A DNA stretch of 64,000 nt from Bacteroidia bacterium. Lineage in GTDB: Bacteria; Bacteroidota; Bacteroidia; Chitinophagales; JAUHXS01. The notes under the pieces were generated by a model, which was not told the origin of the DNA, made no database searches, and saw nothing but the letters and a program-made list of their open reading frames with translations. The stretch lies in the NCBI GenBank assembly GCA_030426955.1, contig JAUHXS010000002.1, positions 372,001 to 436,000 of the forward strand, in the 5' to 3' direction. This document shows, in pieces, positions 60,023 to 61,830 of the stretch (its first letter is position 1; the number at the start of each line of letters is the position of its first letter). The translations under genes and the position numbers were made by a program.

Positions 60023-60511
60023 TTAATCAAGTTCAGGATCATTTTTATGTACACCTTTTCTAAGATACTTTGTTCTTCGCTCAATCCAAGAAATGCTGAT
60101 CAGTAAAAATGTCGAAATTAGTGTAATCCAAATAGCTTGTTTAACGTGTCCAACGCCAATAAGTGTTCCCACGGCAGCTAAAAGCCATATTGCAGCTGCA
60201 GAGGTCACGCCTAAAACTATTCCGTTTTTTGTTAGAATAACTCCAGCACCTAAAAATCCTATACCAGTTACAACTTGTCCTATTACTCTTGTATGATCTC
60301 CATTTACATTAATGACGGAGGATGAAACGGCAATAAAGACGTATACCCCTAAGCAAATCAATATACTTGTTCTAATTCCTGCAGGTTTTCCAGACCATTG
60401 GCGCTCAAATCCAATAACCCCAGAGCAACATACAACAGTAGTAATTCCTATCCACGAGAGTGGAGAAATGCTCAATGCTTCTGAAAAAAATGCCTTTATA
60501 CTTTCTAGCAT
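60023..60511 (-). CDS. MgtC/SapB-family membrane protein
   Basis: A 162-residue protein with about four or five membrane helices. The MgtC signature is present: VIGFERQWSGKPAGIRTSILI (read as GxERxxxxxPAGxRT), followed by GIGFLGAGVILT and GVTSAAAIWLLAAVGTLIG. MgtC proteins affect Mg2+ homeostasis or ATP-synthase activity. No Mg2+ sensor or Mg2+ transporter gene lies near it. It is the first gene of the pair with the thioesterase. Confidence 0.9.
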   Translation of the reverse strand: MLESIKAFFSEALSISPLSWIGITTVVCCSGVIGFERQWSGKPAGIRTSILICLGVYVFIAVSSSVINVNGDHTRVIGQVVTGIGFLGAGVILTKNGIVLGVTSAAAIWLLAAVGTLIGVGHVKQAIWITLISTFLLISISWIERRTKYLRKGVHKNDPELD

Positions 60512-60802
60512 GTTTGATTTTAAGATAAATATACCAACTTAATGAATAAGCATTTTAAATATTTTCAAATCTATTTTAAACAAAATTTTTGCAGGTAATA
60601 CATTACTAGCTTGAATAAGTTCCATTGAAATTAAAACTATAAACTAAAGTTTTGCCGTGTCGTTCAATCCTCCTTCACTTTGTTTAGGCGCATAAACTGG
60701 ATGAAATACTTAACATTCTTTACCTCAAAAGAATCATAATATTCAAGTTTTAAATCTTAAAACTTGTAACTTTGCAACTATAAACTTTTAAACTAAAGTT
60801 TT
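60512..60802. other. Intergenic leader before the tRNA-Arg locus
   Basis: About 290 bp, AT-rich and without an ORF worth calling. It contains a 15-nt word, TAAACTAAAGTTTTG, at 60640-60654, repeated exactly at 60789-60803 directly at the start of the truncated tRNA-Arg, and the -7 box at 60767. The first copy is followed by GCCGTG, so it may be a decayed leader of an earlier tRNA copy. Confidence 0.6.
60767..60774 (+). promoter_or_regulatory. Predicted -7 promoter box of the tRNA-Arg locus
   Basis: TAACTTTG fits TAnnTTTG, 29 nt before the truncated tRNA copy. It was probably the original tRNA promoter and now would transcribe the truncated tRNA, the GIY-YIG ORF and the intact tRNA together. 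Confidence 0.5.
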
Positions 60803-60867
60803 GGCTCCGTGGCGCAACTGAATAGCGCATCAGACCTGCCTCGCCGGTAGGCGGGTTTCGGCTCTGA
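60803..60867 (+). pseudogene. Truncated tRNA-Arg 5' half with 21-nt insertion
   Basis: Positions 1-31 and 32-43 of tRNA-Arg(TCG): the 5' acceptor strand, D arm and whole anticodon arm are present and match the intact copy with one difference (T for C at position 4). A 21-nt palindromic insertion splits it between the 5' anticodon stem and the loop. Variable loop, T arm and 3' acceptor are absent, so it cannot be a working tRNA. The break is exactly after the anticodon arm. Confidence 0.85.
60835..60855 (+). repeat. 21-nt palindromic insertion in the truncated tRNA
   Basis: CCTGCCTCGCCGGTAGGCGGG. With flanking A and T it folds ACCTGCC / GGCGGGT (7 bp, one T-G) around a 9-nt loop, so it lengthens the anticodon stem into a long hairpin. 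It is absent from the intact copy. Confidence 0.75.
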
Positions 60868-60882
60868 CGATAAAAATTAAAG

Positions 60883-61134
60883 ATGTACTATGTTTATTGC
60901 ATCAAGAGTTTAACCAAGCAGAGAACTTATATAGGAATGACAAATAATCTTGATAGAAGATTAAAGGAGCATAATAGTGGTCAAAATAAATCAACCAAAG
61001 CATTTTTGCCTTGGAAATTAGTATATAAAGAGGATTTTGAAGATATTAGCGAAGCTAGAAAAAGAGAGAAGTATTTTAAATCTGGATCAGGAAGAGAATA
61101 TTTGAAATCAATTTTGGCCCCGTGGCGCAACTGA
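60883..61134 (+). CDS. GIY-YIG single-domain endonuclease ending inside tRNA-Arg
   Basis: An 83-residue GIY-YIG protein. The motif pair is YYVYCIKS (GIY position) and TYIGMTNNLDRRLKEHN (YIG, with catalytic Arg and the His/Asn), and the Glu region is REKYFKSGSGREYL. It should be a small metal-dependent nuclease. The ATG is 15 nt after the truncated tRNA. The last codons (TTG GCC CCG TGG CGC AAC TGA, L-A-P-W-R-N-stop) come from the 5' end of the intact tRNA-Arg, which starts at the third base of the Leu codon. The stop is within the D arm. The domain itself is complete before the tRNA. Confidence 0.88.
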   Translation: MYYVYCIKSLTKQRTYIGMTNNLDRRLKEHNSGQNKSTKAFLPWKLVYKEDFEDISEARKREKYFKSGSGREYLKSILAPWRN

Positions 61135-61189
61135 ATAGCGCATCAGATTTCGGCTCTGAGGGTTGCAGGTTTGAATCCTGCCGGGGTCA
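61116..61189 (+). tRNA. tRNA-Arg (anticodon TCG)
   Basis: A 74-nt cloverleaf: acceptor GGCCCCG / CGGGGTC (one G-T), D arm GCGC...GCGC, anticodon stem TCAGA / TCTGA with loop TTTCGGC (anticodon TCG), and T arm GCAGG TTTGAAT CCTGC. Discriminator A. CCA not encoded. It has no promoter of its own that I can see, so it probably depends on the promoter before the truncated copy and on processing of the GIY-YIG transcript. Confidence 0.93.
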
Positions 61190-61329
61190 CTAGGGAATCA
61201 AGGCGCCATGGTTTTCTGAAACGAGCAAAGTAAAAGTTTACTTTTGCTTTGTGAGTGCAAGAAAATTCAACTGCGTAAGCAGTTGGCGAATTGATTTTGA
61301 CCTCGAACAAGGTAAGGATCATCATAGAT
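61190..61329 (+). other. Structured spacer with two hairpins
   Basis: Imperfect hairpin at 61225-61247 (GCAAAGTAAA / TTACTTTTGC with a one-base bulge). Perfect 7-bp hairpin at 61268-61285 (CAACTGC, tetraloop GTAA, GCAGTTG); GUAA is a GNRA tetraloop. A short ACCT/AGGT pair lies at 61300-61313. The end pairs GGAT (61316) with ATCC of the tRNA 3' duplicate. This is compatible with a structured RNA; no sense ORF is present. Confidence 0.55.
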
Positions 61330-61348
61330 AATCCTGCCGGGGTCACTA
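61330..61348 (+). repeat. Duplicate of the tRNA-Arg 3' end
   Basis: AATCCTGCCGGGGTCACTA is identical to 61174-61192, that is, the end of the T loop, T-stem 3' strand, acceptor 3' strand, discriminator and three following bases. It resembles an attachment-site duplication, but no integrase gene exists between the copies. Confidence 0.85.
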
Positions 61349-61362
61349 AAAAGTTCAAAATT

Positions 61363-61731
61363 ATGTCCAAAAGGAATAAAATAATTTATTGGATATCAAC
61401 TGTATGGCTTGCACTTGGTATGCTGTCAAGTGGCATAGTGCAATTGATACAAATGGAAGAAGAAGCCGAAATGATGGTACGATTAGGTTACCCTTCTTAT
61501 TTTATGACGATACTTGGTGTATGGAAAATATTAGGAGTTATTGCTATTCTTTTGCCTAAATCAGTTTTGATAAAGGAATGGGCATATGCAGGTTTTTTCT
61601 TTGCTATGTCAGGAGCTATGGTATCACATATTTTAGTGGGTGATCCAATTACGGAAGTGCTTCCTTCCACATTACTATTAGTGCTAACAATATTATCTTG
61701 GTCGTTTAGACCAGCAAGTAAGAAGCTATAG
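61363..61731 (+). CDS. DoxX-like family membrane protein
   Basis: A 122-residue protein with four membrane helices. It starts MSKRNKIIYWISTVWLALGM; the frame can be read 72 nt further upstream through the duplicated tRNA 3' end, but this is not credible. It has GYPSYFMTILGVWKILGVIAILLP and a later LLVLTILSWSF, as expected for DoxX-like proteins. Their function is unclear (redox or membrane stress in some bacteria). It begins 15 nt after the tRNA duplicate and is closed by a good terminator. Confidence 0.9.
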   Translation: MSKRNKIIYWISTVWLALGMLSSGIVQLIQMEEEAEMMVRLGYPSYFMTILGVWKILGVIAILLPKSVLIKEWAYAGFFFAMSGAMVSHILVGDPITEVLPSTLLLVLTILSWSFRPASKKL

Positions 61732-61741
61732 ATCGATATTA

Positions 61742-61765
61742 AAAGCAGGGCAAGTGCCCTGCTTT
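61742..61765. terminator. Bidirectional rho-independent terminator
   Basis: A perfect 10-bp stem AAAGCAGGGC / GCCCTGCTTT with loop AAGT, A's on the left and T's on the right. It ends the DoxX gene on the plus strand, and the cysteine-rich peptide/sigma factor transcript on the minus strand. Confidence 0.9.
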
Positions 61766-61770
61766 CGTCT

Positions 61771-61830
61771 TTAACAATTGCAGTTACAAGAGCAATTGCA
61801 GTTTTCGCAACATCCTTTTGACTTTCTCAT
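61771..61830 (-). CDS. 19-residue cysteine-rich peptide (metallothionein-like)
   Basis: A short ORF with ATG and TAA that encodes MRKSKGCCENCNCSCNCNC, seven Cys in 19 residues, with a basic start. The Cys pattern (CC, then CxxC, CxC, CxC, CxC, CxC) is typical of metal-thiolate binding peptides, but no known family of this length is recognised. It lies 69 nt after the SigZ-like sigma factor on the same strand and directly before a terminator, so they are probably one transcript. The leader before the ATG is A-rich. Translation is not shown; the strongly Cys-only composition makes chance unlikely. Confidence 0.65.
   Translation of the reverse strand: MRKSKGCCENCNCSCNCNC

Follow-up and report, generated by a model that had tools for sequence, protein, structure and literature searches.

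A tRNA-Arg gene in the genome of a Bacteroidia bacterium lies between partial copies of itself and overlaps a small GIY-YIG nuclease gene, which raises the question as to whether an element has inserted itself into a tRNA gene and nevertheless left that gene working. We consider, with a probability of roughly two in three, that the locus belongs to a family of compact insertion elements that target tRNA genes and regenerate their target. All coordinates given below are positions in the complete 64,000-nt stretch of DNA that was analysed (the window), in which the locus is situated on the + strand.

The locus contains a single intact tRNA-Arg gene with anticodon TCG, detected by ARAGORN at 61116-61190 and scoring 60.4 bits against the Rfam tRNA model. 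Upstream of it, a 5' relic (60803-60867) covers tRNA positions 1-44 (t1-44) according to the repeat alignment: t1-32 are identical to the intact tRNA at 31 of 32 positions, and are followed by a 21-nt palindromic insertion, CCTGCCTCGCCGGTAGGCGGG (60835-60855), located exactly at the start of the anticodon loop, and then by TTTCGGCTCTGA. The repeat check of the window recovers this duplication as a 36-nt direct repeat of 97% identity (60799-60834 and 61112-61147) and as a 12-nt repeat of TTTCGGCTCTGA itself (60856-60867 and 61148-61159). On the downstream side, a 3' relic (61330-61348), composed of tRNA positions 59-75 plus TA, is identical to the end of the intact gene, which gives a 19-nt direct repeat of 100% identity (61174-61192 and 61330-61348). 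The nuclease ORF (60883-61134, 83 aa) has no stop codon of its own, its last codons and its TGA stop (61132-61134) being located inside the intact tRNA. A putative tRNA promoter element, TAACTTTG (60767-60774), which matches the Bacteroidota -7 consensus TAnnTTTG, is now found upstream of the 5' relic. Folded on its own, this relic performs no better than shuffled sequences (z = -0.58).

The preliminary description of this DNA, made from the letters alone, had recognised the tRNA-Arg 5' half and 3' end in two copies each, the intact gene between the outer fragments and a GIY-YIG ORF between the 5' copies, and all of these observations are confirmed. Its report that neither an integrase nor a group I intron core is present also agrees with our data: the ORFs of at least 50 aa in the unit are the nuclease and chance ORFs overlapping the repeats, and the Rfam scan of 60500-61800 gave no match to a group I intron, the tRNA being uninterrupted. 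The palindrome in the 5' relic and the position of the ORF stop inside the intact tRNA are additions to that description.

Pfam analysis assigns the window protein to the GIY-YIG family PF01541 with 65.8 bits (cut-off 22.6), and the catalytic residues of the superfamily are in place, with Y5, Y16, G18, R26, H30 and E62 each conserved in at least 96% of 160 homologues. The dN/dS ratios of most close nuclease pairs, at approximately 0.03-0.4, indicate that the gene is under purifying selection; one pair with very few changes gave 0.71. The nuclease is a bare catalytic core, of about 80-90 aa across the family, with no additional DNA-binding domain. Its nearest solved structures are those of UPF0213 (1ywl and 1zg2), followed by SLX1 and then by the catalytic domain of I-TevI. 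It thus resembles UPF0213/COG2827 in nearest structures, in size and in single-domain layout, and differs in its fixed linkage to a tRNA gene and a relic. The Ssn family of ssDNA-specific GIY-YIG enzymes from Neisseria may be linked to it, which we mention as a lead only. Carriage by phages or plasmids was considered and set aside, as a search with the window protein returned one distant phage record and no match among plasmid records.

A generic Pfam search of the window's genome, in which matches were not chosen by context, returned 12 GIY-YIG matches. Ten of these adjoin tRNA genes on the same strand, the other two being UvrC (L011) and a gene that stands alone (L003). The neighbouring tRNAs are of many isotypes: Met (three times), Arg (TCG, TCT and ACG), Ser (GCT and TGA), Val (TAC) and Phe (GAA). 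At most of the ten loci, a degenerate piece of the neighbouring tRNA is present on the far side of the ORF, this piece being short at one Met locus and at one Ser locus.

The search was extended in two ways: a profile (A1), built from the window protein and seven paralogues, was run over 150 genomes from the same order, and GTDB contigs were searched with the window protein itself. Together, these searches produced 195 distinct matches of at least 60 bits, 154 of which have 400 nt of sequence on both sides; given how the profile was made, the following proportions describe that subfamily only. A tRNA gene is found within 300 nt of the nuclease in 133 of the 154, as against a rough estimate of 1% for a random site to fall that close to a tRNA. 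Nuclease and tRNA share the same strand in every tRNA-linked case (145 of 145), and a partial copy of the same tRNA occurs within 500 nt in 128 of these, compared to 1 of 145 in a reversed-tRNA control. Among tRNAs more than 1 kb from any family nuclease, 5 of 51 had such a partial copy, and the true background is if anything lower, since several of the 51 had been fetched because of a palindrome. The hosts belong to the Flavobacteriia, Cytophagia, Chitinophagia, Saprospiria and Bacteroidales, together with one Ignavibacterium, one Firestonebacterium and many Patescibacteria. Cultured strains are among them (Maribacter huludaoensis, Algoriphagus kandeliae, Gelidibacter algens, Ekhidna lutea and Flavivirga), and hence the arrangement is not an artefact of metagenome binning. 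The expectation that a unit centred on a GIY-YIG nuclease would recur at a variety of tRNA genes is therefore borne out at other loci and in other genomes: these insertions occur at tRNA genes and leave behind one intact tRNA.

The unit occurs in two mirror-image architectures. In type D, to which the window locus belongs, the order is promoter, 5' relic, nuclease and intact tRNA; the intact tRNA frequently starts only a few bases from the ORF, whose stop codon lies inside the tRNA in 39 of 66 loci. In type U, the intact tRNA and its terminator come first, followed by the nuclease, a 3' relic and a repeat of that terminator; the terminators are duplicated in 28 of 52 loci (match above the 1% threshold). 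Since terminators differ between species, the duplicated piece must have been made locally. The breakpoints vary, the 5' relics ending at approximately t30 to t65 and the 3' relics starting at approximately t10 to t60. This range, together with the existence of the 3'-relic architecture, disagrees with the fixed break after the anticodon arm that had been proposed at the outset. The idea that the relics are functional tRNA-like molecules was also examined and rejected: acceptor pairing is possible by eye in the type-U loci L071 and L200, and not in L190 or L174.

Presence/absence polymorphism at a fixed site was established for two occupied loci with empty sites in congeners. The type-D case concerns an occupied tRNA-Leu(CAA) gene in G141 (L057), for which G109 (L321) and G121 (L320) carry the plain gene, the leader of L057 being 94.6% and 90.2% identical to those of L321 and L320, respectively. 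Behind this shared leader, with its promoter box TAGATTTG, L057 has a t1-43 relic into which two palindromes have been inserted, then the nuclease and finally a complete tRNA; the insertion measures 336 bp, and the regenerated tRNA is identical to that of G109 at 84 of 84 positions. A TAnnTTTG box is present both upstream of the relic in L057 and upstream of the empty-site tRNA in L321, and the comparison thus identifies the 5' relic as the gene's original 5' end, which has kept its original promoter. In the type-U case, G145 (L260) possesses a tRNA-Met gene and terminator with no nuclease, while G064 (L259) possesses the full unit, the upstream genes being 73% identical over 1.08 kb. The intact tRNA of occupied sites is undiverged from that of element-free congeners (L057, and also L259 and L285). 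Downstream of the tRNA-Met unit of L259 (G064:C2, query positions ~1600-1900), we also observed a dispersed repeat, of which the genome has many more copies, the longer ones being 82-94% identical.

These comparisons bear on several suggestions of the preliminary description. It had called for a search of relatives for empty sites, which do exist at two loci, with an intact tRNA left at the occupied ones; the circumstance it had held against a mobile element, namely an arrangement confined to this one locus with no empty site, is not what was found. It had also proposed that the nuclease carries a replacement tRNA 5' half. An origin of such a half from elsewhere, as with the foreign gene ends described below for fungal mitochondria, is abandoned: as the regenerated tRNA equals that of congeners in the cleanest case and the terminators are duplicated locally, the extra tRNA piece looks copied from the target.

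A tree of the nucleases was built after removal of the C-terminal overlap and thinning to 75% identity; the alignments are short and many forks of the tree are poorly resolved. The nuclease lineages follow tRNA identity. The amino acid of the linked tRNA changes 33 times on this tree, compared to a mean of 63 and a minimum of 57 over 500 shuffles, and the nearest neighbour is linked to a tRNA for the same amino acid in 66 of 103 cases, where 17% is expected, and in 58 of 103 when neighbours are limited to the other architecture. All four tRNA-Leu nucleases from Patescibacteria have Bacteroidota tRNA-Leu nucleases as their closest relatives; the other nine Patescibacteria cases show no such amino-acid-matched pairing with Bacteroidota. 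This pattern is consistent with a target specificity carried by the protein, and could in part stem from a single old insertion that was passed on vertically within a lineage.

The palindrome seen in the window is also a recurrent feature. Insertions of at least 12 nt occur in the relics of 92 of 140 loci, and are clearly palindromic (p <= 0.02) in 69; typically, a palindrome of about 20 nt is placed at a tRNA loop, with the D, anticodon, variable and T loops used alike. The base preceding a palindromic insertion is A in 55 of 78 cases. One exact 20-mer, CCTGCCTGCCGGCAGGCAGG, of which the window's CCTGCCTCGCCGGTAGGCGGG is a variant, is found in the relics of 22 loci other than that of the window, in both Bacteroidota and Patescibacteria, with the end of the D loop (t20-22) as its commonest position. 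The palindromes include several unrelated sequences, and one type-U subfamily has exchanged the whole anticodon arm for a hairpin, e.g., TCCCGA...TCGGGA. The median length of the longest uninterrupted match that the flanks share with the intact tRNA is 22 nt, and relics broken up in this manner may survive because they recombine poorly with the intact copy. In the window's genome, CCTGCCTGCCGGCAGGCAGG occurs only three times when up to 3 mismatches are permitted, once in a nuclease-side relic and once upstream of a tRNA cluster. Other genomes contain many copies away from nuclease genes, and the palindromes are therefore not exclusive to the nuclease/tRNA system.

Some further occurrences are worth recording. 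About ten copies of CCTGCCTGCCGGCAGGCAGG lie within 32 kb of G020 (L247-L254; G020:C2:1200428-1232722), most of them splitting GTCATTCCGAGC-type intergenic repeats at the same point. In L217 (G035) and L219 (G071), the same palindrome interrupts tandem GACACAAGACACAA repeats. In L214 (G055:C50, ~1500), tRNA-Leu(TAA) is followed by a tRNA 3' relic that has a palindrome inserted in its T arm, and no family nuclease was detected within 1 kb of this tRNA-Leu.

The region between the intact tRNA-Arg and the 3' relic (61191-61329) requires a separate explanation. It had been noted as a 137-nt structured spacer and, by implication, as part of the nuclease element; the structure is upheld, the attribution is not. 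The sequence from 61191 to 61335 folds far better than its shuffles (z = -5.4), and covariation supports a closing stem, in which 7 of 11 pairs are changed on both sides over five loci, a value reached by 0 of 500 shuffles; a conserved motif, TTTTGACCTYG...GGATC, is also present. A covariance model locates the spacer at 15 places in 7 of the 150 genomes. The window's genome accounts for five; the usual position is immediately behind tRNA-Arg (once behind tRNA-Ser), with a short 3' relic following the spacer. Three of these loci are nuclease-linked; at the eleven others checked, which include tRNA-Arg loci of other genomes, no family nuclease was found within 1.5 kb. As the spacer occurs without the nuclease, it is a non-coding unit in its own right, one that likewise duplicates the end of a tRNA. 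The 3' relic is part of this second unit, and the earlier picture of a single element that split one tRNA gene with a loss of 14 nt is thereby rejected.

Individual copies of the spacer show additional features. One copy in the window's genome follows tRNA-Ser(GGA) and has a 14-nt 3' relic (L362, G000:C18:112729-112875), and another is a stray copy with no tRNA (L363, G000:C9:64041-64201). In L351, L352, L357 and L358 (G134, G031 and G093), the spacer follows tRNA-Arg or a 3' tRNA relic, the tRNA trailer is repeated after the 3' relic (in L352 with a terminator hairpin), and the closing stem is formed by the tRNA trailer pairing with a nearly complementary copy. An Rfam match to lactis-plasmid RNA (61206-61286) overlaps the spacer; at 41.5 bits, below the gathering score of 70, it was taken as a chance match and this identity was rejected.

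We propose that insertion breaks the resident tRNA gene and duplicates part of it, so that one complete tRNA would remain. The nuclease, which in type D would be read from the tRNA's own promoter, may nick or cut its cognate tRNA gene, probably recognising either the sequence of the gene or a cloverleaf or cruciform shape; repair by homologous recombination or template switching could then copy the nuclease in and duplicate the target. Homing by DNA cleavage is a plausible mechanism, and the unit is presumably mobile. The palindromes may hinder precise excision by leaving only short stretches of repeated tRNA sequence, or may mark a cut site. In the window, a second, non-coding unit (spacer and 3' relic) would have been added on the 3' side. 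Some points weigh against this scheme: the variable breakpoints are untidy for a site-specific enzyme; the nuclease has no DNA-binding domain beyond its catalytic core; and the intact tRNA at occupied sites is undiverged, which offers no obvious way for the nuclease to spare its own locus.

No earlier description of the tRNA/nuclease/relic arrangement was found in the literature searched, which comprised few subscription papers and no preprints, and the family is apparently undescribed. The nearest analogies appear to be the mobile endonuclease ORFs (mORFs) of fungal mitochondria (PMC3630166) and the SegB protein of phages (PMC2988022, PMC13096335). The mORFs, known from atp6 of Allomyces and from atp6, atp9, cox2 and nad3 of Glomus, are endonuclease ORFs within a gene that has its end in duplicate and therefore keeps working, the native end persisting as a relic; one case, atp9, is a GIY-YIG enzyme, and the inserted gene end is foreign and diverged (PMC3630166). 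Both systems thus combine an inserted endonuclease gene, a duplicated target end, a functional target and a relic. Unlike the foreign gene end of the mORFs, the regenerated tRNA of the case tested matches that of congeners exactly, and the terminators are duplicated locally; moreover, the targets are bacterial chromosomal tRNA genes, 5' as well as 3' parts are duplicated, and the relics contain palindromes. SegB of phages T4 and T6 is a free-standing GIY-YIG homing endonuclease of tRNA regions (PMC2988022, PMC13096335), and in T6 it drives tandem repeats of tRNA-Tyr plus segB, for which the 5' end of the tRNA and the 3' end of segB provide the microhomology (PMC13096335). A free-standing GIY-YIG gene beside tRNA genes and tRNA/nuclease tandem repeats are common to both. 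SegB, to which breaks within tRNA sequences have been linked, is encoded by phages and acts in their genomes, whereas the present family has a bare catalytic domain, bacterial chromosomes as hosts, lineages that follow tRNA identity, and relics with palindromes.

The T6 precedent suggests a different reading, in which the nuclease amplifies its locus: breaks beside the tRNA, followed by recombination of tRNA pieces, would create tandem copies that supply dosage or spare tRNAs, the relics being by-products of duplication and contraction. Tandem copies do occur, with two nuclease matches less than 600 nt apart in 33 of 183 locus-strand sets (some loci overlap) and three near-identical 92-bp relics in tandem at L264, and leaders and terminators are duplicated locally. 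This reading leaves unexplained the arrival at many unrelated tRNA genes in one genome, the empty sites in congeners and the close tRNA-Leu relatives in Bacteroidota and Patescibacteria; dosage, furthermore, is not raised, as most loci hold one intact tRNA and broken pieces. We judge it unlikely. Slightly less likely again is a hairpin system, in which the GIY-YIG domain would recognise DNA hairpins, move short palindromes and use tRNA genes for their cloverleaf hairpins. In REP/RAYT systems (REPtrons), a gene is flanked by short palindromes that are also present elsewhere in the genome, and the present family shares this feature, so that nuclease and palindrome might be partners like transposase and REP; the gene here is GIY-YIG, with no Y1 transposase (RAYT), the palindromes are different, and tRNA relics are present. 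The sharing of CCTGCCTGCCGGCAGGCAGG by both phyla at loops, mostly after A, its occurrence at only three places in the window's genome, two of them being a nuclease-side relic and a site upstream of a tRNA cluster, and the structure-specific SLX1 enzymes as next structures after UPF0213 speak for such a system. The copies far from nuclease genes and the use of unrelated palindromes speak against it, and palindrome counts do not clearly follow nuclease counts (40 versus 3 in G075; 0 versus 9 in G024).

Two more familiar explanations fare considerably worse. Integrases use tRNA genes as attachment sites and regenerate tRNA 3' ends, and the pieces could in principle be footprints of genomic islands that used a tRNA attB. 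The unit of ~0.3-0.5 kb contains no integrase, however; both 5' and 3' halves are duplicated, a nuclease is present in every case and on the tRNA strand, and the type-D empty site (L057 versus L321/L320) contradicts this explanation, which we regard as highly improbable. A degenerate group I intron that encodes a GIY-YIG homing endonuclease would suit the enzyme family and the interruption of the window's 5' relic at the anticodon loop, a known intron site; given that the tRNA is complete and uninterrupted, that no intron core was matched and that insertions fall in all four loops alike, its probability is close to negligible.

The preferred reading, an insertion element that regenerates its tRNA target, can be extended to a widespread and so far unrecognised class of bacterial mobile elements, in which a lone, structure-recognising GIY-YIG domain invades tRNA genes, with one identity per lineage, rebuilds the tRNA from the target, disables the leftover tRNA with loop palindromes and spreads between Bacteroidota and Patescibacteria. 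We put this extended version forward tentatively, as possible yet on balance doubtful. If true, it would describe a minimal selfish element of one gene of ~80 codons, found in two large groups of bacteria, which exploits essential and highly conserved tRNA genes yet does not destroy them. Many of the small proteins annotated as 'GIY-YIG nuclease family' in these genomes, the fragments of broken tRNAs and one class of short palindromic repeats would also be accounted for. Finally, nature would provide a collection of nucleases with lineages that follow different tRNA genes, which would make the code that links a bare GIY-YIG domain to its target testable.
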